Part shown: positions 13,675 to 61,385 of the stretch, piece by piece
Position numbering within the stretch: position 1 is the stretch's first letter
Layout of the letters: each line of letters starts with the position of its first letter
Source: Microbacterium sp. LWS13-1.2
GTDB lineage: Bacteria > Actinomycetota > Actinomycetes > Actinomycetales > Microbacteriaceae
Direction: 5' to 3'
Assembly: GCF_040144835.1 (NCBI RefSeq)
Contig: NZ_CP151632.1
Location: 2,666,001 to 2,730,000 of the forward strand
DNA: 64,000 nucleotides
The notes under the pieces: model-generated
Database searches by the model: none
What the model was told of the DNA's origin: nothing
What the model saw: only the letters and a program-made list of their open reading frames with translations
Translations under genes and position numbers: made by a program

Positions 13675-13691
13675 CCCGGCCTCAGGCCGGG
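13675..13691. terminator. GC-rich hairpin at the parB stop
   Basis: CCCGGCC and GGCCGGG pair around a TCA loop that is the parB stop codon on the minus strand. It sits in the convergent gap between the sigma gene and parB and could stop transcripts from either side. There is no T run, so it is a weak call. Confidence 0.35.
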
Positions 13692-14659
13692 CCGTAGCCG
13701 GTCTCTCCCAGCTCTCCCAGGATTCGGTTGAGATCCTCGATGCTCGCGAAATCGATTGCGATCTGGCCTTTTCTTGCCGTGAGTGAGATCTTCACGCGTG
13801 TGTTGAGGCGATCGCCAAGCCTTTCCGCAACCTCATCGAGGTGCGCGCGGCGCGAACCCGCCTGAGGTTTCGCCGCGCGCGTGGGCGAAGCATCCGGCAG
13901 CTTCGCCGCGGCCTCCGCGGCACGCACCGACAGATCCTCGTTGACGATCTTGTCGGCGAGGCGCTGCATTGCCGCGGCGTCCTCGAGCGACAGGATCGCG
14001 CGGGCGTGGCCGGCCGTCAGCACACCGGCGGCCACGCGCTGCTGCACCGGCACCGGCAGCTTCAGCAGCCGGATGGTGTTGCTGATCTGCGGCCGTGAAC
14101 GGCCGATGCGCGTCGCCAGCTCTTCCTGGGTGATGCCGAAGTCCTCGAGCAGCTGCTGGTACGCCGATGCCTCTTCGAGCGGGTTGAGCTCCGAGCGATG
14201 GAGGTTCTCGAGGAGGGCGTCACGCAGGAGGTGCTCATCGGCGGTGTCGCGCACGATGGCGGGGATCGAGGTGAGTCCCGCCTCTCGGGCGGCGCGAGTG
14301 CGGCGCTCGCCCATGATGAGCTCGTACTCGCCCTTGTCGTTGCTGCGGACGACGACCGGCTGCAGGACCCCGAATTCGCGCACGCTGTGCACGAGTTCCG
14401 CGAAGTGCTCGTGGTCGAAATTCGTGCGCGGCTGACGCGGGTTGGGAACGATGTCGTGCGGGTCGATATGTGCGAGCCGCGCCCCGGGGACCTCGACGAG
14501 GTTCTCCTCGGTATCAGCCGTGACCGCTTCGACTGGTGGGGCTTCGTCGACGGCGACAGCACGGGGGAAGAAGACATCGGAGGGGCGGTCGTCAGCCTGC
14601 TCGTTGGTCGGGATCAATGCGCCGATTCCGCGGCCGAGCCCTGTGCGCTTCGCAGCCAT
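13682..14659 (-). CDS. parB: Chromosome-partitioning protein ParB
   Basis: A 325-residue ParB. The N-terminus KRTGLGRGIGALIP carries the LGRG-type motif that stimulates ParA ATPase. The CTP-binding domain includes RQPRTNF and MGERRTRAAREAGL (GERR, residues about 120-130). The helix-turn-helix (TQEELATRIGRSRPQISNTIRLLKLP) binds parS. A C-terminal dimerisation region ends the protein. It would load on the parS sites present in large number from 16.1 to 24.1 kb. It starts one base after the parA stop region (TGA/ATG overlap at 14659), so it is translationally coupled to parA. Confidence 0.96.
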   Translation of the reverse strand: MAAKRTGLGRGIGALIPTNEQADDRPSDVFFPRAVAVDEAPPVEAVTADTEENLVEVPGARLAHIDPHDIVPNPRQPRTNFDHEHFAELVHSVREFGVLQPVVVRSNDKGEYELIMGERRTRAAREAGLTSIPAIVRDTADEHLLRDALLENLHRSELNPLEEASAYQQLLEDFGITQEELATRIGRSRPQISNTIRLLKLPVPVQQRVAAGVLTAGHARAILSLEDAAAMQRLADKIVNEDLSVRAAEAAAKLPDASPTRAAKPQAGSRRAHLDEVAERLGDRLNTRVKISLTARKGQIAIDFASIEDLNRILGELGETGYGPA

Positions 14660-16236
14660 CAGTCGCCCCTTTCATTCGAGGCGCTGTCGCGCCGGATCAT
14701 CTCGACAGCCGCTTCGCGGTAGGCGATGGCGCCGGCCGACTGTCCATCGTAGGCGAGAACCGACTGCCCGAAGCTCGGCGCCTCAGAGACCCGGACAGAC
14801 CTAGGAACGACGGTGTCGAGCACCTCCTTTGGAAAGTGCTCGCGCACCTCATCGGCGACCTGCTGCGCAAGACGCGTGCGACCGTCGTACATCGTCAGCA
14901 TGATCGTCGAGAGCTGCAGCCGCGGGTTGAGGTGCTTCTGGATCATGCGCACGGTGCCGAGCAGCTGGCTCAGCCCTTCGAGCGCGTAGTACTCGCACTG
15001 GATCGGGATCAGCAGTTCGGTGGCCGCGGTGAAGGCATTGATCGTGAGCAGACCGAGCGAGGGCGGGCAGTCGATCAGGATGAAGTCCAGCTGTCCCTCG
15101 TGCTTCTCGAGGTAGTCGTCGACGGCGACGCGCAGCCGGTGCTCCCGCGCGACCTGCGACACCAGCTCGATCTCAGCACCGGCGAGGTGGATGGTGCTCG
15201 GTGCGCACAGCAGGTTGGGGGACTCGGGACTGACCTGGATGATGTCAGCGAGGGGGAATTCGTCGATGAGCACGTCGTACACGCTCGGGATGTCGGCGGT
15301 GTGCGGCACGCCCAGCGCCGTCGAGGCATTTCCCTGCGGATCCAGATCGATCACGAGAACGCGGGCGCCGCGCTCGGCGAGGGCCGCCGCCAGGTTGACC
15401 GTCGTGGTCGTCTTCCCGACGCCGCCCTTCTGATTCGAGACCGTGAGCACGCGCGTGCGGCCGGTGAGCTGAACCTCGGCTTCTTCGAGCGCCTTACGGC
15501 GCGCCGTCAGATCCGCGAGTTCGCGGGCGATCGGCGAATCGTCTTCGTCATGCCCGATACTGAAGCCGTCGTGCTGCGCGATGGGGGAGTCCTCTTCCTG
15601 CGTGGCGGGGGTGCTCTCGTCCGAGGCGACGGTGGGAGCGACGTCGAGTGATACGTCGCCTGCCGGACCAGCGTATTCGTCGGTCGCGACATCGGCGTCG
15701 GCGTCGGTCGCGTCGGCCTGCATCTCGCCCGGCGTGACCTCCCCGCCCGGCGTGATGTCCTCGCCCGGCGTGATGTCATCGCCCTGCGCGACCTCCTCGC
15801 CCTGCGCGACCTCCTCGCCCTGCGCGACCTCCTCGGTCGCAGCGACCCCGGCTTCCGCGAGCTCCGCATCTGCAGACGTCGACGAGTCCTCTGCGTGGAC
15901 GTTCTCAGTGGACGCATCTGCGATGTCGGGGTCCCCGTCATCCATCTGCGGCTCGGCAGCGGACTCGAACGCGGCGTCCGTAGGTGAGACCTCAGGACCG
16001 CCAGACTGGGTCGCATTGGACCCTGCTGGTGGAGCTTCGACGCGGTCGTCCACGGAGGCTGACGGAGACTCTGTCGCCAGCGCGGTGAGTGGGCCATCGG
16101 ACGAGAAGGATGCCTGAGCCTCGGTCTCGTCGGGTTGTTTCACGTGAAACTCTCCCCTTTGCGCAGGCCGCTCAACATCGCCTTCCACCTTATCCCGCCT
16201 TCCCCCCATCCCCAGCCGCCGGAGCCAGTTGTTCAT
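14659..16236 (-). CDS. parA: Chromosome-partitioning ATPase ParA (Soj) with long acidic N-terminal extension
   Basis: A 525-residue protein, roughly 250 residues longer than usual for chromosomal ParA. The ATPase core starts near residue 262 with TVSNQKGGVGKTTTTVNLAAAL (deviant Walker A) and continues with VLVIDLDPQGNASTALG and FILIDCPPSLGLLT. The extension is acidic and low in complexity: repeats of the type VAQGEE and ITPGED occur near residues 145-175, followed by LADLTARRKALEEAE. I chose the ATG at 16236 because AAGGA precedes it at good distance; an ATG at 16284 is also in frame. Codons 29-33 (FHVKQ) are the translation of a perfect parS core. ParA moves ParB-parS complexes on the nucleoid. 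Confidence 0.9.
   Translation of the reverse strand: MNNWLRRLGMGGRRDKVEGDVERPAQRGEFHVKQPDETEAQASFSSDGPLTALATESPSASVDDRVEAPPAGSNATQSGGPEVSPTDAAFESAAEPQMDDGDPDIADASTENVHAEDSSTSADAELAEAGVAATEEVAQGEEVAQGEEVAQGDDITPGEDITPGGEVTPGEMQADATDADADVATDEYAGPAGDVSLDVAPTVASDESTPATQEEDSPIAQHDGFSIGHDEDDSPIARELADLTARRKALEEAEVQLTGRTRVLTVSNQKGGVGKTTTTVNLAAALAERGARVLVIDLDPQGNASTALGVPHTADIPSVYDVLIDEFPLADIIQVSPESPNLLCAPSTIHLAGAEIELVSQVAREHRLRVAVDDYLEKHEGQLDFILIDCPPSLGLLTINAFTAATELLIPIQCEYYALEGLSQLLGTVRMIQKHLNPRLQLSTIMLTMYDGRTRLAQQVADEVREHFPKEVLDTVVPRSVRVSEAPSFGQSVLAYDGQSAGAIAYREAAVEMIRRDSASNERGD
16136..16151. other. parS site inside the parA 5' coding region
   Basis: Perfect core GTTTCACGTGAAAC at 16137-16150. It is read through by parA as FHVK, so this site and the protein sequence constrain each other. 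Confidence 0.9.
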
Positions 16237-16879
16237 GCGTTCCTTATCGTTGCGAGCGGGACTGCCATCACCTCTAGTCAACATCGCCTGACCCCGCCGG
16301 TGGCGCTAACCCGCCGCTTCAAGGGAAGCCCGGTGCCGGATTGTGACGAAGCCAGCCGGTCCCGGCGTGCTGGAGCGAAAGCCGGGGCCGCTGGGCCGAC
16401 GCTGGCCAAGACCGCGTCCGCGACGCGACGCCTGGAGCGCGTCTCGCGCCGCGCGGGCACCGCCGGCACTGCACCCATCACCCGGTACAGCCACCGGCGA
16501 CCGGCGCCAGTGCGCGAGACCGACGTCCCCGCGCCGCCTTCTGCCGCGTGACCGACCGCTCCCCTAAATCGTTCGCACGGCTCGCGACAGCACCTTCCAT
16601 ACGCCGGCGCCCGCGCCGCGCGCCATCACCGGATCGCAGACCACACCGGTGTCCAAGCCGACACGTTGTTCTCGAGGGCGACCAGGCTCCGGTGTACTAC
16701 CGAAGATCTATCGGCTCGGCGGATCAACGTGTTCGTGAGGTGATGCGCCGCGACGGACACGTCGCGATCAGCCCGCGTCATGCGCGGCGCCTGCCATGCA
16801 CACGTTCTCCGGCGGGCCTCACCCCTACCCGCTGCCGCGCCGCCATCGGAGGGAGGCTCATCCGTGAACATGCACGGTA

Positions 16880-16895
16880 CGTTTCACGTGAAACA
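16880..16895. other. parS site
   Basis: Perfect 14-base core at 16881-16894; the flanking bases are C and A. Confidence 0.9.
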
Positions 16896-17304
16896 CTGGT
16901 GCGGCCATCCGTAGCCACACAGGACGCGCTGGCAGCGACGCGCATCTGCCGGCCGTCGGCAGGCATGGCCGGCCTGCATCCGCGGGGGCCCGCGCGGGGC
17001 TGCTTGAAACATGTGCCTGCGCTTCGGATTGCGGGGTGCCACGTCGACTCTCTCCACGACTGGCCGGCTGGATAAGAAGCGCCGACGGTTCGCGTCGGCG
17101 CGGTAGCCCATCTCGCCGCGCGGTCGGCGCCGCCGTACGCCCGGTGTCTCCCAGACAGCCGCCGCCGAGAAAGGGGGCACTGGGGGTTCACGCGACGAAG
17201 ACGATCCACCGCCGCAGCCACATCACCCGGCTCGCACCGTGATCCAAGCACCGCCGACCACGATGCCTGGTCATCGCTCGGTACGCGTCCGATGAGGGAT
17301 GGAG

Positions 17305-17320
17305 ACGTTCACGTGAAACA
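17305..17320. other. Degenerate parS site
   Basis: CGTTCACGTGAAAC at 17306-17319 matches 12 of 14 core positions; the left arm has lost a T. Confidence 0.6.
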
Positions 17321-17723
17321 ACCGGCTACGGCCCTAACGGCCCAGCTCGGCCGCCTGTTCGCAGCGGATGTTTCACGCCGCGTACTCGAGTCGCCGGTGA
17401 CGCCCCCAATGCAACAGGGTTCACCGGTGGTCCAGCACCCCGAGAGTCCCGCACGACGGCCCTCCGTTGACACTCACCGAGCGACGGGGTCTCGCGTTCC
17501 CACCCGAACCGCGACCGCCATCGGCGCAAGTAGCGTCCGGTTCCTTGTCCAAGATCGCACGGCCGGGTCACCCGCCGGGCCCCACATGGCGCCGCCGGTG
17601 ATTCACGCCGCGTATCGACTCCCAGCGCCCGCGAACACCCGACGCCCGTTCGCCCCTTCGCCCGCGCGTCACCGACAGGGTCGTCGCCACCCAACGGCAA
17701 CACTCCAGCGGCCAGGGGAGGGG

Positions 17724-17739
17724 TGTTTCACGTGAAACA
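17724..17739. other. parS site
   Basis: Perfect 16-base TGTTTCACGTGAAACA. It opens the ~247-bp repeat series. Confidence 0.93.
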
Positions 17740-17974
17740 TGCACCCCGGTCCAGCATCCGGCGAAGCAATGATCAGTTCGCACCGCCGACCTGGGTCGCA
17801 CACTCCAACCATGACCGCCGATCAGTGCGCGGATGGGTGGCAAGGAATTCACGCCCGCGTATTGGGGTCCCGCCCATCGCCGCACACCCGTCACCACTTC
17901 GCACGTTCGTCCAACGTTCCACCGACCACGGCGCGGCACTCCCGACCGTCGGTGGAACAGCACCGCGCGCGGGG

Positions 17975-17990
17975 CGATTCACGTGAAACA
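17975..17990. other. parS site, one mismatch
   Basis: GATTCACGTGAAAC at 17976-17989, with A for T at core position 2. Confidence 0.8.
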
Positions 17991-18221
17991 TCGGCCAGGC
18001 CCCGGCCCCAGCGCAGCAGCGATCGCTCGCACCGCCACCGCTCGGGTCCCCGGACCGGACGACGTCCGACGGTCGACCGCGTGTGCACCCTGGTGCGCTG
18101 GCGCTTCATGCCAGGTGTGGAGTCGCACCCACCGGCGCGACCATCAGCAGTTCACGCCCTCGTCCGAGCGATCGCGGACAATCTCGATCGCCACCCAACA
18201 GTGAGACGCCGAGCGAAGAGA

Positions 18222-18237
18222 TGTCCCACGTGAAGCA
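18222..18237. other. Degenerate parS site
   Basis: GTCCCACGTGAAGC at 18223-18236 matches 11 of 14 positions; the central CACGTG is intact. Confidence 0.55.
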
Positions 18238-18461
18238 TCGGCCAGGCCCCAGCACAGAGCGCCACAGCCGTCGGTTCGCACAGCGATCGGTCTCCCATTC
18301 CGACGACCTCTGGCGCCGGCGACAATGCTCCGCTGACGGGAGTGCTGTCAATCCCCGGCACCGGGCTCGCTGTCGCCGACGCACGGTCGGCTACCGATTC
18401 TCCGCGCGCGCCCGCGCCCATCGCGAGGGATGTCGCGAGCACGTAAGCTCAAGCGCTCGTC

Positions 18462-18477
18462 TGTTTCACGTGAAACA
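18462..18477. other. parS site
   Basis: Perfect TGTTTCACGTGAAACA. Confidence 0.93.
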
Positions 18478-19412
18478 TTCAATTCGCGCCTGCGATCAGC
18501 CACCGCGCCGGTTCTGACCGTGGGGCACAGGACTCCGCCACGACCGGATCGAACCGCAGATCAATTCCAGGTGCCCAACCAACGCCATCGCGTTTCGGGT
18601 GGCCACTCGAGTCACCGCACGGACGGTGGGCAGGCAGCAAGCGGTCCGCCCCTGACGTTCAGGGCCGCTACCGGCCGCGCCAGGTCGTGCCGATCCATCG
18701 GTCAATGCTGTCGACGGGCGAGAAGCGGGCTCAGAGGTGAGCGAGGGCCGCTCCCGCCGTCGGGCCATTCCTTCACCGGTTCGCTCCGTCGTCGGGTTAG
18801 CCCCGCGCATCGCACCAGTCACCAACAGACAGCTCGCACGTCAATCGGGGAGGGTGTCGGCACGCGGGTCCGAGCTGCGGCATCCGCACCGGTCGACGCG
18901 GCTCACACGGATCCACGTCAACACGAGCATCACCGTCATGTACCAAGCATCCGCGCCGGTCATTGCACGAGGCTGGCTCACGCGAAGATCGAGCCACGAA
19001 TGCCGCTCCGCGCAGGAGGCCACCGATTCACGCCGTCATTCGAGACAGCTGCGGCGGACATCCGCGCCGCCGACCAGATCCAAAGCTCCCTGACCGGGGT
19101 CCACGATGCGTCGTACGAGCACTTCGAGCGGGGGGCTACCCATCGCGCGCACCCGCCACCGCATCGCACCGAGATTCGCGACCGACCGACCGCGGCCGCA
19201 TCCGCCGCTCCTCAGGTCGCTTGCTCGTCTAGGGGTGCCTCACCACGATCGCACCGCCCACCAATCGGCAGCGACGCGGCAGGCGAGACGGCGTTGCGGT
19301 GCGCGACACAACTGCCGCCCTGCGCAGAGCAACCGGTCACCGCTGCGCACACCATCAGGGCTCTCACCGACCGGGGCGGCAGCTTTCGCGTGTCAGTTTG
19401 TTATGCACGAGA

Positions 19413-19428
19413 TGTTTCACGTGAAACA
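19413..19428. other. parS site
   Basis: Perfect TGTTTCACGTGAAACA. It is the most isolated site of the set, 951 bases from its left neighbour and 496 from its right. Confidence 0.93.
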
Positions 19429-19908
19429 CCCAGAGATGCATGAGTGCGCCGACGGCATCATTGGAACCGGTCTACCACCACATACCAGCGCCACAGCAGC
19501 AGGCCAACCGTCGACAACACAGCAGCTGCGGCGGGCGCATACACGCTTCCCGCGCACACGCAGCGGCGCGCAAGCCGGGCTGGTCCGTCATGCGCCGTAC
19601 CCGTCAACTCCCACCGGCAGCCCCGACTGCGCGGGGGCCAGTGTCCCGCGCAGGGGGAGACCCTAGCCCGTCGGCGGGCGGCACACCGGCTCACCAACGT
19701 TGATGCGCCGTGAGTCTCATGAGCCCGCGAACTGCCACGGTTCACAGCTCTGATCCCGCCGAGGCTCCCTCCCCACATCACCCACGAACCTGGCGCAGAA
19801 GGCGCCCCACTCCCAACCGCTGAAGCACGATGCGGCGATTGGTCGCAGAATGGAGGCAGATCGTCCGTCCGCCGCGCTGTGCACTGGCGGACTCTCGCCA
19901 CGCGTCAG

Positions 19909-19924
19909 CGTTTCACGTGAAACA
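19909..19924. other. parS site
   Basis: Perfect core at 19910-19923, flanked by C and A. First site of the ~290-bp series. Confidence 0.92.
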
Positions 19925-20005
19925 TCTACGCGCCGCGCCCGCCTCCGACCGCGCCTGCACTGCCGGAGCCGTCGGTGGCAGCGGGCAGGCGCAGCTGCGC
20001 GCCGC

Positions 20006-20040
20006 GGACCGGACCGGACCGAACCGAACCGAACCGAACC
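20006..20040 (+). repeat. Pentanucleotide run (GGACC)3(GAACC)4
   Basis: Seven 5-base units in a row inside the first ~290-bp unit; the last four are GAACC. It expands the CGGAACC motif that other units carry once. Confidence 0.9.
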
Positions 20041-20204
20041 GAAAGACGGAACCGGGGAGACGACATCCGCTCCGACCCGTCGCACCCCGCCCAGTCCGAT
20101 CCCTGCGGTCACGGCACGGCGCGGCGGGCCGTACCACGGACAATTGGTCGCAGAATGGGGCCACCGCCAGTCCGCCGAACTGGCTGACTCTCGCCCTGCG
20201 CAGG

Positions 20205-20220
20205 TGTTTCACGTGAAACA
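20205..20220. other. parS site
   Basis: Perfect TGTTTCACGTGAAACA. Confidence 0.93.
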
Positions 20221-20488
20221 GGGCCACCACGTCGGTTTCGGCCGCGAAAGCGCTTGGGGAGCTGTTAGTTGGCAACAGCCAAGGTGGCTGCGCTCTCCCG
20301 GACCAGAAGACGGAACCAGGCGCGGGGACGCCATATCGACCCGTCAGCATCGACACAGGCGAACGCGACCCGTCTCGCGCCCGGCCGCTAATGCACGACA
20401 CGGTGCGCGTACCCGGACGAGCGGTCGCAGGAGGGAATCACCGTCACTCCGCCCAACTGTGAGCTGGCCGACTCTCGCCACGCGCAGG

Positions 20489-20504
20489 CGTTTCACGTGA
20501 AACA
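20489..20504. other. parS site
   Basis: Perfect core at 20490-20503, flanked by C and A. Confidence 0.92.
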
Positions 20505-20766
20505 TCTAGCCCCCGGGTCGGCCTTCGGCCGCGCATGCGCTGCGGGAGTTGTCCGCTCGCAACAGGCAAGGTGGCTGCGTACCGCCGGGCCGGAAGACCG
20601 GAACCAGGCGCGGGGACGCGATATCGACCCGTCAAGCACGGACACGGGAGCATGCCACCCGCGCCCTTATGCACGACGCGGCGCGCGTACCCGGAGAACT
20701 GGTCGCAGATTGGGACAACCGTCCGTCGGCCCGGCTGTGCCACTGGCCGATCTCGTCACGCGTAGG

Positions 20767-20782
20767 TGTGTCACGTCAGACA
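20767..20782. other. Decayed parS site
   Basis: GTGTCACGTCAGAC at 20768-20781 matches 11 of 14 positions, and the central palindrome is broken. It is exactly where the ~290-bp period predicts a site. Confidence 0.55.
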
Positions 20783-21036
20783 TCTAGCCAACGCGCCCGT
20801 CTTCGGCCGCGCAAACGTGGGCATCGGGCAGAGGTAGATGCGCGCCGCGGATCGGATGGGCCGGAAGACGGAACGCGGGGCGGATCACATCCGATCCGCC
20901 CCGACACGGCCGCACACCACCCGTGGCGCCCTGCCGCTGACGCACGATGCGATGCGCGTCTCCGGACAAGTGGTCAAAGGAGGGACAGTCGCCAGTTCGC
21001 CGGGCTGTTAGCGGGCCGACTCACGCCGCGCGCAGG

Positions 21037-21052
21037 TGTTTCACGTGAAACA
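21037..21052. other. parS site
   Basis: Perfect TGTTTCACGTGAAACA. Confidence 0.93.
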
Positions 21053-21319
21053 CCTAGCCACCGCGTCATCGGCCGCGCGAGCGCCGCCGGAGTTGGAGGT
21101 GGATTGCGCCGGCAGACGCAAATCCGCGTGGGGGACGGCACGACTGAACCAGGCCCGAAGACGCCACCCGTCCGACCCGTCACCCCCGACGGACCCACCA
21201 CACTCCGCTCCTTGCCGCTGATACACGGCCTGGCGCGCGTCCCGCGGACAAGCGTTCACAGGATCGGCAACCGCCAGTCCGCCGAGCTGTGCCACCGGCC
21301 CGCTCTCGCCACGACAGGG

Positions 21320-21335
21320 CGTTTCACGTGAAACA
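21320..21335. other. parS site
   Basis: Perfect core at 21321-21334, flanked by C and A. Confidence 0.92.
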
Positions 21336-21610
21336 TCTCTCCACCGCGCCCGTCTTCCGCCGCGCAACGCTGACGGAGTTGTCGGTCGGGTGCGCAGGCA
21401 GAGGCAGATGAGTGTGGCGACGGGAACACTGAACCACGCCCGGAGATGCCACGCATCCGACCCGTCAGTACCGACACACCGACGGACAGCGCACACCCCG
21501 CTCCGTGCCGCCGATACACGACCCGGCGCACCCCGCGGACAAGTGTTCACAGAAGCGGCAACCGTCAGTCCGCCGAGCTGTGCCACCGGCCCGCTCTCGC
21601 CACGACAGGG

Positions 21611-21626
21611 TGTTTCACGTGAAACA
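21611..21626. other. parS site
   Basis: Perfect TGTTTCACGTGAAACA. Confidence 0.93.
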
Positions 21627-21903
21627 TCTCTCCACCACGCCCGTCTTCGGCCGCGCAACGCCTTTGAGAGTTGTCCGTTGGCTGCGCAGACAGAGACGCA
21701 GATGCGCGTGGGGGACGGCAAGCCTGAACCAGGCCCGCGGACGCCACACATCCGACCCATCAGGACCGGCACGGGCGGACACCACACACCCCGCTCCGCG
21801 CCGCTGATGCACGAACCGGCGCACCCCGCTTACAAGTGGTCACAGGAGCGGCAACCGTCAGACCGCCGGGCTGTGCCAGTCGCCTGCTCGTGCGGGGACA
21901 GGG

Positions 21904-21919
21904 TGTTTCACCTGAAACA
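21904..21919. other. parS site, one central mismatch
   Basis: GTTTCACCTGAAAC at 21905-21918: the central CG step has become CC, which breaks the symmetry of the most conserved part. Confidence 0.7.
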
Positions 21920-22193
21920 TTTCGCTATCGCGCCCGTCTCCCGCGGCGCAACGCCTGTGGGAGTTGTCGGCTGGGTGCGCAGGCAGAGGCAGCTGCGCGT
22001 GGCGACGGCAAGACTGAACCAGGCCGGGGGGACGCCACCCATCCCACCCGTCAGCACCTGCACGGGCGGACACCACACACTCCGCCCCGTGCCGCTGATG
22101 CACGGCCCGCATGTCCCGCGGACTAGTGGCCACAGGATGGGCAACCGTCAGTCCGCCGAGCAATGCCACTGGCCTGCTCTTGCCAGGACGAGT

Positions 22194-22209
22194 TGCTTCA
22201 CGTGAAACA
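22194..22209. other. parS site, one mismatch
   Basis: GCTTCACGTGAAAC at 22195-22208. Confidence 0.8.
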
Positions 22210-22487
22210 ACTTGCTGTCGCGCCGTCTCCCGCAGTGCAACGCCTGTGGGAGTTGTCGGCTGGCTGCGCAGGCAGACGCAACTGCGCGTGGCGACGGCAA
22301 GACTGAACCAGGCCGGGGGGACGCCACCCATCCCACCCGTCAGCACCGGCACGGGCGGACACCACACACCCCGCCCCGTGCCGCTGATGCACGACGCGGC
22401 GCGCGGTCCCGCGGACAAGGGTCACAGGAGTACCCGTCCACCCGCCGAACTATGCCGCTGACTGGGCTGCTCTCGCCACGACAGGAG

Positions 22488-22503
22488 TGTTTCACGTGAA
22501 ACA
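22488..22503. other. parS site
   Basis: Perfect TGTTTCACGTGAAACA. Confidence 0.93.
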
Positions 22504-22787
22504 TCGATCCACGCCCGCCAACCTTCGGCCCCTCGGCACTGCGGTCGCTGTCGTGGTCGGCGGGTAGAGGCCGATGCGCGTGAGAGAAACCGGAAGCTTG
22601 AACCAAGCCGGACCCGGTGTCAGCACACTCGATCCATCAGCATCGACACACCGGCGCACACCACCCACTCCGCTCCGAGCGGGCGGTCTACGAGCGCGGG
22701 CCTGTCGTCCTCCCGACATATTGTCCCCGGACGGTGCCAACCGTCACCCCGCCGAGCTCCATCACGGGCAGCCGCTCGCCGCACGGC

Positions 22788-22803
22788 TGTTTCACGTGAA
22801 ACA
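22788..22803. other. parS site
   Basis: Perfect TGTTTCACGTGAAACA; only 52 bases from the next site. Confidence 0.93.
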
Positions 22804-22839
22804 TCCGCCGCACCCGAAGCGCGGCTCGCCATGCGCGGC

Positions 22840-22855
22840 TGCTTCACGTGAAACA
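22840..22855. other. parS site, one mismatch
   Basis: GCTTCACGTGAAAC at 22841-22854, outside the regular spacing. It forms a close pair with the site at 22788. Confidence 0.8.
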
Positions 22856-23123
22856 GCCGTCCACTGGCGTTGCGCGGCCGTTGTCGGCTCTCAGCCAGCA
22901 GAGCCAACGGCAGATGCGCGCCGAGCGACCGTAAGACGGAACCAGACAGGGGATCGCCACGTCGTCATGTGCGATGCGTGAGAGCCGGCACGGACGCGCA
23001 CGCCCATTTCGCTCGCCGCCGGATCTACGAACGCGGTGCATGCCCTCTGGACGCATTGTCGCGGGATGGCTCAGCCCTCACTCAGCCGAGTTGCATCACG
23101 GCCCGGCACCCGCCCCGCCAAGG

Positions 23124-23139
23124 TGTTTCACGTGGCGTC
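23124..23139. other. Decayed parS half-site
   Basis: GTTTCACGTGGCGT at 23125-23138: the left arm and CACGTG are intact and the right arm is lost. It ends the array. Confidence 0.5.
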
Positions 23140-23420
23140 AGCCCGCGGGGCGGCGTCTTCGGTTGCCGTGGGCTGTGGTGCATCCCGCGTGCATCGAAGA
23201 GAGCCACAGCAGTTGCGCGCCGGGGGAGCGGGAGCCTCACGAAGGCCGGGGGTGTGCCACTTCAGCGCATCCGCTCCATGAGCACCGACACTCTCGCTCT
23301 TCGCTCCTCGACGGGCGGGAGGAGCAGACCTGCCACCTCTTGAGGGGGCGCAGGGACCGCGAGTCCGGAGGCGCGGTATCCGCACGCGTTCTCACCAGTA
23401 GACCGGCGAGGCGGCGAATG

Positions 23421-24044
23421 TCAGCGGACGGTGGCGCGGATGACCCGGGACGGCTCGGGCAGCAGACCCTCGCCGACGATCTCGACACGGGCGTTCGTCA
23501 CCTTGAAGCTGCGCAGCTGCTTCGCCGCAGCGTCGATCTCGTTTGTGGCGCTCGTTCCCTTGAGGAGAATGAGTTCGCCGCCGTCGCGCACCAGAGGAGC
23601 CGTGATCGGTACCAGGGTGCGCAACGCGCTCACGGCGCGTGCGGTCACCGCGTCCAGAACCGGCCCGCGCTTCCAGTCCTCGGCGCGCGCCCGAACCACC
23701 TCGACGTTGTCGAGTCCGAGCGTCTCGACCTGCTCTGACAGCCACGCGACGCGTCTCTCCATCGGCTCGATGAGGATCCACTCCACGTCGGGCCGGGCGA
23801 TGGCGAGCACCAGCCCCGGAAGCCCGGCGCCCGAGCCCACGTCACCGACGCGACCCGAGAACAGCGGCGCAATGACGGCGCTGTTGAGGATGTGCCGCGA
23901 CCACAGCCGCGGCGGCTCAAGGGGACCGATCAGCCCACGCTCTTCGCCGTGCGCGCCAAGTGCTGCGGCGAAGCGCCGGGCGACCTCGATACGGTCGCCG
24001 AAGATCTGCGCGGCAGCCGCGGGCTCCTGCTCGATCTCGATCAT
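23421..24044 (-). CDS. rsmG: 16S rRNA (guanine527-N7)-methyltransferase
   Basis: A 207-residue class I methyltransferase (GidB). The SAM-binding motif is VGDVGSGAGLPGLVLA (about residues 67-82), and the N-terminal region has the family's PRLWSRHILNSA (LW.RHIlds motif). It methylates N7 of G527 in 16S rRNA. The position downstream of jag on the same strand matches the conserved jag-rsmG-parA-parB order, except that the parS array now separates rsmG from parA. A parS site lies just upstream of its start. Confidence 0.95.
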   Translation of the reverse strand: MIEIEQEPAAAAQIFGDRIEVARRFAAALGAHGEERGLIGPLEPPRLWSRHILNSAVIAPLFSGRVGDVGSGAGLPGLVLAIARPDVEWILIEPMERRVAWLSEQVETLGLDNVEVVRARAEDWKRGPVLDAVTARAVSALRTLVPITAPLVRDGGELILLKGTSATNEIDAAAKQLRSFKVTNARVEIVGEGLLPEPSRVIRATVR

Positions 24045-24071
24045 CGACGACCCGTCACACTCGACAGCGGA

Positions 24072-24087
24072 TGTTTCACGTGAAACG
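24072..24087. other. parS site between jag and rsmG
   Basis: Perfect core at 24073-24086, flanked by T and G. It is the site nearest oriC (about 4.3 kb) and lies outside the gene-free region, in the 49-base jag-rsmG gap. Confidence 0.9.
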
Positions 24088-26871: not shown

Positions 26872-26880
26872 TTATCCACA
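26872..26880 (+). promoter_or_regulatory. DnaA box in the dnaA leader
   Basis: Perfect TTATCCACA, 11 bases past the TAGCGT box and 57 bases before the dnaA start. Confidence 0.8.
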
Positions 26881-26937: not shown

Positions 26938-28371
26938 ATGACACCGCACGAAGTTCCAGACGTTCCGGTCTGGACGGCCGTACTGGACGAACTCGTGCGC
27001 GACGATCGCATCACCCCGCAGCTCCACGGCTTCATCAGCCTGGCCGTTCCGCAGGGTGTCATGGGGGGAACGCTGTACCTCGACGTTCCCAACGATCTGA
27101 CCGCTGCGCAGTTCACCAAGCGCATGCGCGCGCCGATCCTCGAGGCTCTCACGCGGGTCGTGCAGGACGGGCAGAACCCGGCGTCGACGTTCCGTGTCGT
27201 CGTCAATCCGGATCTGGCAGACGCGCATCTCACCGCGCCGATCCCGATCCAGTCGACCACGCAGGTCATCCCGTCGGCGCCGCCCATCGGGCGCCCGCAT
27301 CTCGACGAGCCGGCGGACACGGCATCCGTCTCGCGCAGCGACACCCGCCTCAACCCGAAGTACACGTTCGACAACTTCGTCATCGGCCAGTCCAACCGAT
27401 TCGCCCACGCGGCGGCCGTCGCGGTCGCCGAGGCGCCGGCGAAGGCGTACAACCCGCTGTTCATCTACGGCGACTCCGGGCTCGGCAAGACCCACCTCCT
27501 CCACGCCATCGGCGACTACGCGCTCAGCCTGTACGCCGGCATCCGCGTGCGGTACGTGTCGAGCGAGGAATTCACGAACGACTTCATCAACTCGATCGCC
27601 AACAACCGGGGTTCGGCATTCCAGGCGCGGTATCGGGATGTCGACATCCTGCTGATCGATGACATCCAGTTCCTGCAGGGGCGCGCCGAGACGCAGGAGG
27701 CGTTCTTCCACACGTTCAACCAGCTGCACGACCACGACAAGCAGGTCGTGATCACCAGCGACGTGCCGCCGAAGCACCTGACGGGCTTCGAGGACCGCAT
27801 GCGCAGCCGGTTCGAATGGGGCCTCATCACCGATGTGCAGGCGCCCGACCTCGAGACGCGCATCGCGATCCTGCGCAAGAAGGCGCAGTCCGAGCGCCTC
27901 CACATCCCCGACGAGGTGATGGAGTATATCGCGACCGTCGTGTCGTCGAACATCCGCGAACTCGAGGGCGCTCTCATCCGCGTCTCGGCGTTCGCGAGCC
28001 TCAACCGCTCGACTCTCGACATGTCGCTCGCGCAGACCGTGCTGCGCGACATCGTCGATCAGGACGACGCCAACGTCATCTCGCCGACGGACATCATCAC
28101 GGCCACGGCCGCCTACTTCAAGCTCACCGTCGACGACCTGTACGGCTCGAGCCGCTCGCAGTCCGTCGCAACGGCCCGCCAGATCGCCATGTACCTGTGT
28201 CGCGAGCGCACGAGCCTGTCACTGCCCAAGATCGGCCAGTTGTTCGGCAACCGCGACCACACCACCGTCATGTACGCGTACAAGAAGATCAGCGAGCTCA
28301 TGAAGGAGCGCCGTTCGATCTACAACCAGGTGACGGAGATCACCGCTCAGCTCGGCCGCAACGGTCGCTGA
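26938..28371 (+). CDS. dnaA: Chromosomal replication initiator DnaA
   Basis: A 477-residue DnaA. Domain I is at the N-terminus (VPVWTAVLDELVRDDRITPQLHGFI) and is followed by a short linker. The AAA+ domain has Walker A GDSGLGKTHL (about residues 179-188) and Walker B ILLIDDIQFLQ (about 237-247). The C-terminal HTH ends with the signature NRDHTTVMYAYKKI (about 437-450), which reads DnaA boxes. It opens oriC, which lies immediately downstream. A G-rich run just before the ATG serves as ribosome binding site. Confidence 0.98.
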   Translation: MTPHEVPDVPVWTAVLDELVRDDRITPQLHGFISLAVPQGVMGGTLYLDVPNDLTAAQFTKRMRAPILEALTRVVQDGQNPASTFRVVVNPDLADAHLTAPIPIQSTTQVIPSAPPIGRPHLDEPADTASVSRSDTRLNPKYTFDNFVIGQSNRFAHAAAVAVAEAPAKAYNPLFIYGDSGLGKTHLLHAIGDYALSLYAGIRVRYVSSEEFTNDFINSIANNRGSAFQARYRDVDILLIDDIQFLQGRAETQEAFFHTFNQLHDHDKQVVITSDVPPKHLTGFEDRMRSRFEWGLITDVQAPDLETRIAILRKKAQSERLHIPDEVMEYIATVVSSNIRELEGALIRVSAFASLNRSTLDMSLAQTVLRDIVDQDDANVISPTDIITATAAYFKLTVDDLYGSSRSQSVATARQIAMYLCRERTSLSLPKIGQLFGNRDHTTVMYAYKKISELMKERRSIYNQVTEITAQLGRNGR

Positions 28372-60436: not shown

Positions 60437-61132
60437 TCAGAAGAGGCGCGGGGCGCCGGACTCGATGCCCTTCATGCCCTCGTAGTCGAGGGTGACGCAG
60501 CGGATGCCGCGGTCGGTGGCGAGCACCTTCGCCTGCGGCTTGATCTCCTGGGCCGCGAAGACGCCCGTGACCGGGGCGAGATGCGGGTCGCGGCCGAGCA
60601 GTTCGAGGTAGCGGGTCAGCTGCTCGACGCCGTCGATGTCACCGCGGCGCTTGACCTCGACGGCGATCGTGCCGCCCTCGGGGTCGCGCAGGAGCAGGTC
60701 GACGGGACCGATCGCGGTCGGATACTCGCGGCGGACCAGGGTGAGGCCGTCGCCGATGACGTCGACCTGCTCGGCGAGGAGACGCTGCAGGTCGGCCTCG
60801 ACGCCGTCCTTCTGCAGGCCCGGGTCCAGGCCCAGCTCGTGCGACGTGTCGTGCAGCACCTCGTAGATGCGCACGAGCAGCGCGTCGCCGCTCTTCGCGT
60901 GGGTGACGCGCCAGTGCTCGAGCACTCCGGCGGCGGCGGATTCTGCATCCGGAATCTCGACGTCCAGGCGGCAGGGCGGGCTCATCCAGTTGAGCGGCTT
61001 GTACGAGCCGCCGTCGGAGTGCACCAGCAGCGAGCCGTCGCCCTTGTGCACCAGCAGGCGGGTCGCGAGCGGCAGGTGGGCATTGAGCCGTCCCGTGTAG
61101 TCCACGGAGCAGCGGGCGATGACGAGACGCAC
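60437..61132 (-). CDS. nucS: Mismatch-specific endonuclease NucS
   Basis: A 231-residue NucS/EndoMS. The N-terminal DNA-binding and dimer domain starts [20 protein letters not shown]. The C-terminal nuclease has [43 protein letters not shown], giving the D...ExK catalytic set in GPVDLL and VEVKR. It cuts both strands at G-T and similar mismatches and is the actinobacterial replacement for MutSL, relying on the beta clamp. The GTG lies six bases after a TAGGCT box on this strand, so the mRNA is leaderless. That promoter lies in the first copy of a 70-bp tandem repeat. Confidence 0.95.
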
Positions 61133-61385
61133 CCGACGAGCCTAGCCCGCGGCCGCGCCGCGAGGATCCGATGAGCCGTTCCCGCGGTCGTGCCGTCGGG
61201 ACCCGACGAGCCTTGCCTGCGGCCTCGTCGCGAGGTCTCGATGAGCCGATCCCGCGGTTGTGTCGTCAGGACCCGACGAGCCTGGCCTGCGGCCGGACCG
61301 CGAGGTCTCGATGAGCCGATCCTGCGGTTGTGCCGTCAGTACCCGACGAGGGTAGCTCGCGGCCTCGTCGCGAAGTCTCGGCGGT
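61131..61385. repeat. 70-bp tandem repeats at the nucS promoter
   Basis: The word ACCCGACGAG recurs at 61131, 61201, 61271 and 61341, exactly 70 bases apart. Each unit continues with GCCTxGCC(C/T)GCGGCC, CGCGAGGTCTCGATGAGCCG and CGCGGT(T/C)GTGxCGTC. The fourth unit is partial. Unit 1 includes the nucS -10 box and start codon, and units 2 and 3 carry altered versions of the TAGGCT box. No gene is visible in it. Confidence 0.9.

Follow-up and report, generated by a model that had tools for sequence, protein, structure and literature searches.

The window analysed here, a stretch of 64,000 nucleotides, is part of the single 4,326,447-bp contig that forms the complete 4.33-Mb chromosome of Microbacterium sp. 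LWS13-1.2. From left to right it holds parB and parA (both on the minus strand), a 7,136-bp gap, rsmG, a jag-like gene, yidC with further origin genes, and dnaA. The subject of this report is an array of parS, the sites at which the partition protein ParB loads, which occupies the gap and reaches slightly beyond both of its ends. We consider it likely that the chromosome has its only parS centromere in this array, which would be a non-coding ParB-loading platform, grown partly by tandem duplication of units with one parS each.

parS sites in the window and the genome

A pattern scan of positions 16137–24086 found 14 exact GTTTCACGTGAAAC cores, four with one mismatch, one with two and two with three, and a further copy at 23123 with four mismatches, judged by eye, brings the total to 22. 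An earlier reading of the window, made from the letters without database searches (the sequence-only reading), had counted 14 perfect, four one-mismatch and four more decayed cores, and these numbers were reproduced, the decayed copies being those at 17306, 18223, 20768 and 23123. It had placed the array between the parA start and the rsmG–jag gap; in minor correction of this, the first site (16137) falls within the parA frame and the last (24073) beyond rsmG. The sites from the scan, to which no strand is assigned, are:

16137–16150, parS, exact, within the parA frame, where it is translated as FHVK; the surrounding stretch is conserved in relatives
16881–16894, parS, exact
17306–17319, parS, two mismatches (decayed)
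17725–17738, parS, exact
17976–17989, parS, one mismatch
18223–18236, parS, three mismatches (decayed)
18463–18476, parS, exact
19414–19427, parS, exact
19910–19923, parS, exact
20206–20219, parS, exact
20490–20503, parS, exact
20768–20781, parS, three mismatches (decayed)
21038–21051, parS, exact
21321–21334, parS, exact
21612–21625, parS, exact
21905–21918, parS, one mismatch
22195–22208, parS, one mismatch
22489–22502, parS, exact
22789–22802, parS, exact, in a 26-nt inverted pair with the 22841 site
22841–22854, parS, one mismatch
24073–24086, parS, exact, in the rsmG–jag gap

Dinucleotide shuffles of the 64-kb window gave a mean of 0.10 sites with at most two mismatches, compared with the 19 observed, and none of 100 shuffles reached that number. 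On the whole 4.33-Mb chromosome, all 18 sites with at most one mismatch fall in 16137–24086 and none elsewhere; the genome-wide scan with a reversed-pattern control returned no site. Because these 18 sites lie together in 8 kb (7.95 kb), the array would be the only parS centromere of this chromosome. It is a compact cluster of the Myxococcus xanthus type (about 20 sites in a few kb near parA), and it lies close to the origin beside adjacent parB and parA, as expected of a chromosomal ParABS centromere. The sites, the adjacency of parAB and the nearby dnaA thus support the origin-proximal ParB centromere proposed by the sequence-only reading.

T before and A after the core are preferred, matching the 16-mer parS. 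When ±75 bp around 503 exact sites outside the window's clade were compared without gaps, only these two positions stood out, and the same comparison in the window's clade (151 sites) gave an additional weak A at −2. At the rsmG-side end of the repeats described below (22783–22860), two parS stand 52 bp apart within 26-nt inverted arms that are 92% complementary.

Coding potential of the parA–rsmG gap

16285–23420, no strand, non-coding parA–rsmG gap, 7,136 bp, 68.6% GC, 16 parS with at most one mismatch (12 exact)

When ten long frames of the gap region were compared with Pfam, none reached a cut-off, the sole match at E≤0.1 being DUF6584 (14.2 bits, cut-off 27), and the gap gave no match in Rfam. 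Codon periodicity was absent, with a GC periodicity of 0.078 in the gap, 0.079 after shuffling, and 0.35–0.5 in the parA core, parB, rsmG, yidC and dnaA. The longest stop-free stretch (368 codons) is of a length that mononucleotide shuffles also give (95% point 408). A sigma-70 scan found no promoter, and five terminator-like sites were found against 3.5 by chance. One hairpin of this kind (17079–17101, minus strand, nine pairs, eight of them G–C) lies between the array and parA and might block read-through, such sites occurring at chance frequency. The roughly 7.2 kb without a recognisable gene described in the sequence-only reading is therefore borne out.

A gap of this kind could be the remnant of a mobile element, or of dead genes, that carried or acquired parS. 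The DNA was gained, since the gap is shorter than 0.5 kb in most fetched loci of other genera. However, neither a Pfam or Rfam family nor a codon signature was detected (no search aimed at mobile-element DNA collections was made), the spacer resembles itself and hardly the other fetched loci, and the same gap has expanded repeatedly in the genus. We therefore regard a remnant as very unlikely. Of the two origins that had been suggested, insertion or growth, growth fits better, as a good part of the spacer is internal duplication; no foreign gene that would mark an insertion was found in the gap.

A satellite of one-parS units

19775–22961, no strand, parS satellite, 11 head-to-tail units of about 270–330 bp (Tandem Repeats Finder, alignment, and nhmmer with E 8.8e-70 to 1.3e-16)
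22981–23252, no strand, decayed twelfth unit with the parS remnant at 23123 (nhmmer, E=2.2e-7)

A diverged tandem repeat with a unit of about 278–293 bp makes up about half of the gap and about 3.2 kb of the array. Each unit carries one parS, except that the copy at 20768 is decayed and the last unit has two. Tandem Repeats Finder reported a 278-bp unit in 2.3 copies at 20177–20814 and a 293-bp unit in 5.5 copies at 20932–22512, and units of about 290 bp follow head to tail when aligned on parS. The nhmmer profile was built from ten units with parS masked, so that ten of the 12 units found had themselves built it. With parS masked in this way, none of the 169 other loci described below, including that of the sister species (L001), gave a match to the unit better than L045 at E=8.1. 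By this between-species comparison, the unit is specific to the window's species among the loci compared.

Within the satellite, parS is better kept than the spacer. Across ten units the pairwise identity averaged 0.93 for the parS core, compared with 0.68 for 267 columns of spacer, in an alignment anchored on parS that favours the core somewhat; outside the core, the best-matching stretch of 14 columns had 0.82. Neighbouring units are the most alike (identity 0.735 for adjacent and about 0.63 for distant units; rho −0.50 over 45 non-independent pairs), reflecting local homogenisation. Loss of parS does occur, as the decayed copies at 20768 (within the ten units) and 23123 (outside them) demonstrate.

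Tandem repeats are prone to assembly errors in general, and one repeat could have been multiplied in this way. The units differ, though, even where they are adjacent, the genome is one contig, and similar gaps are present in separately assembled relatives, which makes such an error extremely unlikely.

The gap in Microbacterium and other genera

Relatives were fetched by their RsmG: the best 80 of 219 candidates and 100 further stretches (78 from Microbacterium, 22 from other genera of the order). With the window this gave 181 loci, of which 172 have parA downstream of rsmG. Nine were left out for a contig end or a short flank (L012, L017, L027, L030, L044, L047, L109, L137 and L170), the place of L012 being recovered at greater length as L100. 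Removal of identical gaps left 170 loci, 124 of them from Microbacterium by name, by genus code or, for L038, by tree position. Since the 100 further stretches were taken from the best RsmG matches, the sample leans towards the window's kin. L030 and L038 are titled Planococcus sp. and Stenotrophomonas maltophilia; they have a Microbacterium-like rsmG and are probably mislabelled or contaminated, and L038 groups inside Microbacterium in the tree.

In the 124 Microbacterium loci, the distance from rsmG to the ParA core ranged from 231 to 10,948 bp (median 1,840), and the number of parS with at most one mismatch in the gap from 2 to 18 (median 6). By the same measure, the window has 17 parS, including the site in the parA frame, in 7,946 bp, and is second of the 124 by count. 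Gap length and parS number rose together (rho 0.90 over 124 loci; phylogenetic contrasts r 0.69, with sites counted in the whole locus). Many of these loci have parS spread over the gap, while some relatives have only two to three parS in a 0.2–0.4-kb gap and three to five in the whole locus.

A gap of more than 4 kb to the ParA core was found in 28 of the 124 loci, including the window. This state needs nine changes on a FastTree tree of 130 loci (the only tree method used, with 37 of 127 inner branches under 80), so expansion of the gap happened several times. The largest long-gap clade has 17 loci, 16 of them above 4 kb and the window among them, and the window's sister in the tree is L001, M. 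psychrotolerans, with 98% identity over the three proteins used. Genome-wide, 357 of 366 Microbacterium genomes have at least one parS, and the window's species is second by count (18, with 19 in G220). The survey of relatives proposed with the sequence-only reading therefore leaves the window near the top of a series that runs through the genus, of 0.2–11 kb and 2–18 parS, and the claim of uniqueness fails.

The same reading had stated that parA and rsmG are usually close together, and in the other genera looked at the gap was indeed mostly below 0.5 kb. Five Leifsonia loci and L169, L172, L178, L179 and L180, however, had gaps of 1.2–3.6 kb and 4–12 sites. Two loci may have other layouts. 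L007 (M. allomyrinae) has 14 parS with at most one mismatch in its 20-kb locus, only five of them up to the ParA core, and several variant parS beyond the core suggest a second cluster. L119 (genome G136, same order) has 21 genomic parS with at most one mismatch, the most in the genome scan that included it, of which eight are in the locus and two in the gap, perhaps a dispersed layout.

Conservation of sites and turnover of spacer

The 124 Microbacterium gaps contained 753, 98, 26, 30 and 97 parS with 0, 1, 2, 3 and 4 mismatches, compared with 0, 0, 1, 7 and 47 in one mononucleotide shuffle per locus. The excess of exact over mismatched sites indicates that most parS are kept perfect; about half of the four-mismatch class is expected by chance, so that old remnants cannot be counted. 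The sites are rarely crowded, with spacings below 30 bp in 0.1% of cases (random 5.3%) and below 50 bp in 2.8% (random 11.5%; n=727).

The spacer between the sites appears to change quickly. Between the window and L001, which share 77% identity at fourfold sites, only 9–11% of it can be aligned. In 60 pairs with both gaps above 4 kb and a fourfold identity of 0.55–0.9, the median alignable share was 0.0, compared with 0.57 in ten pairs in the same fourfold range with both gaps below 2 kb; pairs share species and are not independent, and the short parA gaps used as reference are not neutral DNA. An alignable share of 0 was also seen in two of the ten short pairs (L136/L149 and L136/L150); L081/L082, the closest of the long pairs, can still be aligned over 68% and 48%. 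Evolution of the spacer at a rate faster than neutral is thus only partly supported by these comparisons.

Individual sites gave a mixed result. With parS masked in the alignment, five parS coincide in each of L081/L082, L013/L083 and L004/L011 (random 0.19–0.23, largest 2). One coincides in each of window/L001 (random 0.23, largest 2), L008/L009 (largest 4), L024/L094 and L086/L087, and two in L099/L107. Single sites are thus retained in three of eight pairs, and the mixed result as a whole may mean that sites are held for a time and then replaced. An unmasked alignment had placed eight of the window's sites on those of L001; this measure was dropped because parS itself drives the alignment, and the masked alignment leaves one.

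Tandem and palindromic arrays in the genus

Tandem arrays with at least two parS were found in 28 of the 124 Microbacterium loci and arrays with at least three in 21, with periods of 58–304 bp. Seven of these 21, including the window's, match no other fetched locus, and the other 14 show some similarity elsewhere, for which reason the idea that every array is species-specific was rejected. In the three species whose arrays were read (L143, L132 and L026), this similarity runs through a palindromic repeat that frames parS, the site lying between inverted copies. The element, GGTGGTTGAGTAG-stem-TATCGAAACCACC, occurs in the parA–rsmG gap of these three and of seven other loci. A loose pattern of it matched the gap of ten of 170 loci, none of them among the 17 of the window's clade; of its copies in the fetched stretches, 58 were in the gap and two outside. 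A stricter pattern was absent from the window's whole genome. In a search of six genomes with the strict pattern, all 11 copies of G277 were at the array, and most of the 52 in G405 were away from it. There look to be two routes to the same result, duplication of plain spacer in the window and palindrome-framed units in other species.

Flanking genes and the start of parA

13682–14659, minus strand, parB (TIGR00180, 198 bits, cut-off 58.45; E=1e-50 to PDB 6sdk, Stage 0 sporulation protein J)
14659–16284, minus strand, parA, with the ATPase core at 14659–15474 and a clade-specific N-terminal extension at 15475–16284
23421–24044, minus strand, rsmG (TIGR00138, 123.5 bits, cut-off 99.5)
26938–28371, plus strand, dnaA (TIGR00362, 519 bits, cut-off 343.9)

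ParB is an ordinary member of the Spo0J/ParB family with solved relatives. The top NCBIfam matches of parA are ParA-type partition ATPases, all 25 matches listed being below the cut-off, and its ATPase core is 100% identical to that of L001. The jag-like gene beside rsmG also scores below the cut-off of its family. Exact matches at 26872 (plus) and 28503 (minus) to what we take to be the DnaA box mark the origin region, and the genome encodes one full-length copy of SMC. A separate 70-bp tandem repeat of 3.6 copies lies at 61131–61380 of the window.

The N-terminal extension of ParA measures 188–470 residues by open frame across the 17 loci of the window's clade, where frames may start too early. 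Both of its ends are conserved in the seven relatives read (L001, L004, L005, L013, L081, L082 and L083). In these and the window it has a conserved start, MNxWLRRLGMGxRRD, followed by a parS translated as FHVK, then by an acidic stretch that varies between species and is repetitive in several, and then by the usual ParA start. A protein search with ParA residues 1–250 gave seven matches.

The parS in this conserved coding part of parA, with others within 1.5 kb upstream, would let ParB repress its own operon or be titrated, and the sites might serve mainly to control parAB. The 70–85 bp directly upstream of the parA frame are also among the very few stretches of the gap that blastn aligns to other loci (L001 and L013). 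The dense satellite is 3.5–6.7 kb away, however, and parS is spread over the gap in many Microbacterium loci, so that control of parAB as the main role seems improbable.

Chromosome size and the number of sites

Gap length rose with genome size over 106 loci (rho 0.65; contrasts r 0.32, p 8e-4; sizes rounded to 0.1 Mb), as did the number of sites in the locus (contrasts r 0.21, p 0.03). A control spacer beside dnaA, a rough proxy for the dnaA–dnaN spacer because the longest frame following dnaA was used and is probably not that of dnaN, measured 349–546 bp in 47 of 49 loci. It, too, was slightly longer on larger chromosomes (rho 0.50, n=33) and in loci with longer gaps (rho 0.42, n=49), a weaker trend than that of the gap; the size trend may thus be partly general. 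We treat scaling of the array with chromosome size as a lead.

This control also bears on a rival account in which the centromere is genuine and its size a by-product: recombination would make short repeats in the non-coding DNA near the origin gain and lose copies, and no more than a few sites would count. It is compatible with a ParB-loading centromere and denies only selection on the number of sites. Both the report that one parS suffices in Corynebacterium glutamicum (PMC7083940) and the range of gap lengths in the genus (231–10,948 bp) speak for it. On the other hand, 753 exact sites against 154 with one to three mismatches, and the greater identity of core than of spacer in the window's own units, indicate that most copies are kept, and longer gaps hold more parS. 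We regard size as a by-product as a real possibility, if a rather doubtful one.

Interpretation

By its sequence, the array appears functional; it is real and belongs to the upper end of a genus-wide series. If it is a ParB-loading centromere, its action may be pictured from known systems. ParB is described as loading at parS and sliding until halted by road-blocks, and in vitro it condensed DNA with 7, 13 and 26 parS and not with 1, 2 or 4 (PMC8299390). ParB–CTP clamps would load at each exact parS and slide into spacer free of genes; some 14–18 loading sites would raise the density of clamps and yield one compact partition complex, which ParA would move to segregate the origin. One large ParB condensate, as the sequence-only reading had imagined, is plausible by analogy with the in vitro result. 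SMC loaded from this array alone would zip the arms from a single point; in Bacillus subtilis, strong parS moved far apart reportedly make SMC collisions noticeable (PMC8357415). A compact, gene-free array would combine many loading sites with one start point for SMC, and it may have been retained for that reason. The spacer would be free to turn over, selection would remove damage to parS, and unequal recombination would change the number of sites.

Several points weigh against this picture. One parS is enough in C. glutamicum (PMC7083940) and relatives live with the two or three sites of a short gap, so that a large number of sites cannot be indispensable. The window's gap has four decayed copies, and in five of the eight masked pairs only one or two parS coincide, so that lasting conservation of single sites is not borne out there. 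Very young duplicates would be exact even without selection, though here the surrounding spacer has diverged, and the alignment of units on parS favours core identity.

A wider proposal, to which we would give not quite even chances, is that Microbacterium has satellite centromeres: parS-bearing tandem units would arise, spread and be replaced separately in each lineage, faster than the short-gap form, under selection for the total of intact ParB-loading sites and not for individual ones, and array size would track chromosome size. Such arrays would then be a bacterial version of the rapidly evolving eukaryotic centromere, and if array size follows chromosome size, the centromere would be scaled to its load. 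As most bacteria are described as having one to four parS (PMC3899335), the array bears on why some keep 15–20. A genus with 2–18 parS in one gap between the same two genes is a natural series in which effects of parS number on ParB condensation, origin segregation and SMC loading can be addressed.

Comparison with known systems

The sequence-only reading knew of no compact array next to its own parAB. The nearest known system is that of M. xanthus, where a 3-kb stretch near the origin, some 4 kb upstream of parA, has 22 parS and is shifted by ParB in vitro (PMC3899335); a second paper gives 24 sites (PMC3778016). Both clusters are compact and near parA and the origin, the window having 18 sites with at most one mismatch in 7.95 kb against those 22 in 3 kb. 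As far as the published description goes, that of M. xanthus differs in its consensus, TGTTCCACGTGGAACG, and is denser, and the portions of the two papers at hand mention neither tandem units nor turnover between species. C. glutamicum, like the window's species an actinobacterium with sites near the origin, is reported to have ten parS, nine of them intergenic, with a ParB complex and SMC loading, and its ten-site wild type holds more ParB per cluster than cells with one site (PMC7083940). Its sites extend over 35 kb and lie 73 kb from oriC, and the available parts of that account describe no repeat array. In mainly open literature, at the level of titles and abstracts, we found no report of tandem parS units, of their turnover or of Microbacterium parS. 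The compact parS cluster is thus already known, and what is new is the mode of array evolution, by lineage-specific satellite units with one parS each.

The gaps of other Microbacterium have the same place, the same parS and 2–18 sites. They differ in lacking the window's unit; several have units of about 110–150 bp, some of them framed by the palindrome that is missing in the window.

In eukaryotes, satellite centromeres may carry a conserved protein-binding box, as alpha satellite does with the CENP-B box. The likeness to the window is one of outline: head-to-tail units, a short conserved protein site, fast-changing spacer and lineage-specific units. There is no homology, the window has 11–12 units compared with thousands, and its site is itself the sequence-defined loader. 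By this analogy the array looks like a bacterial counterpart of repeat-based centromeres, and tandem units whose protein site is kept while the spacer around it can be replaced would show that neither eukaryotic chromatin nor meiosis is needed for centromeres to evolve through repeats.

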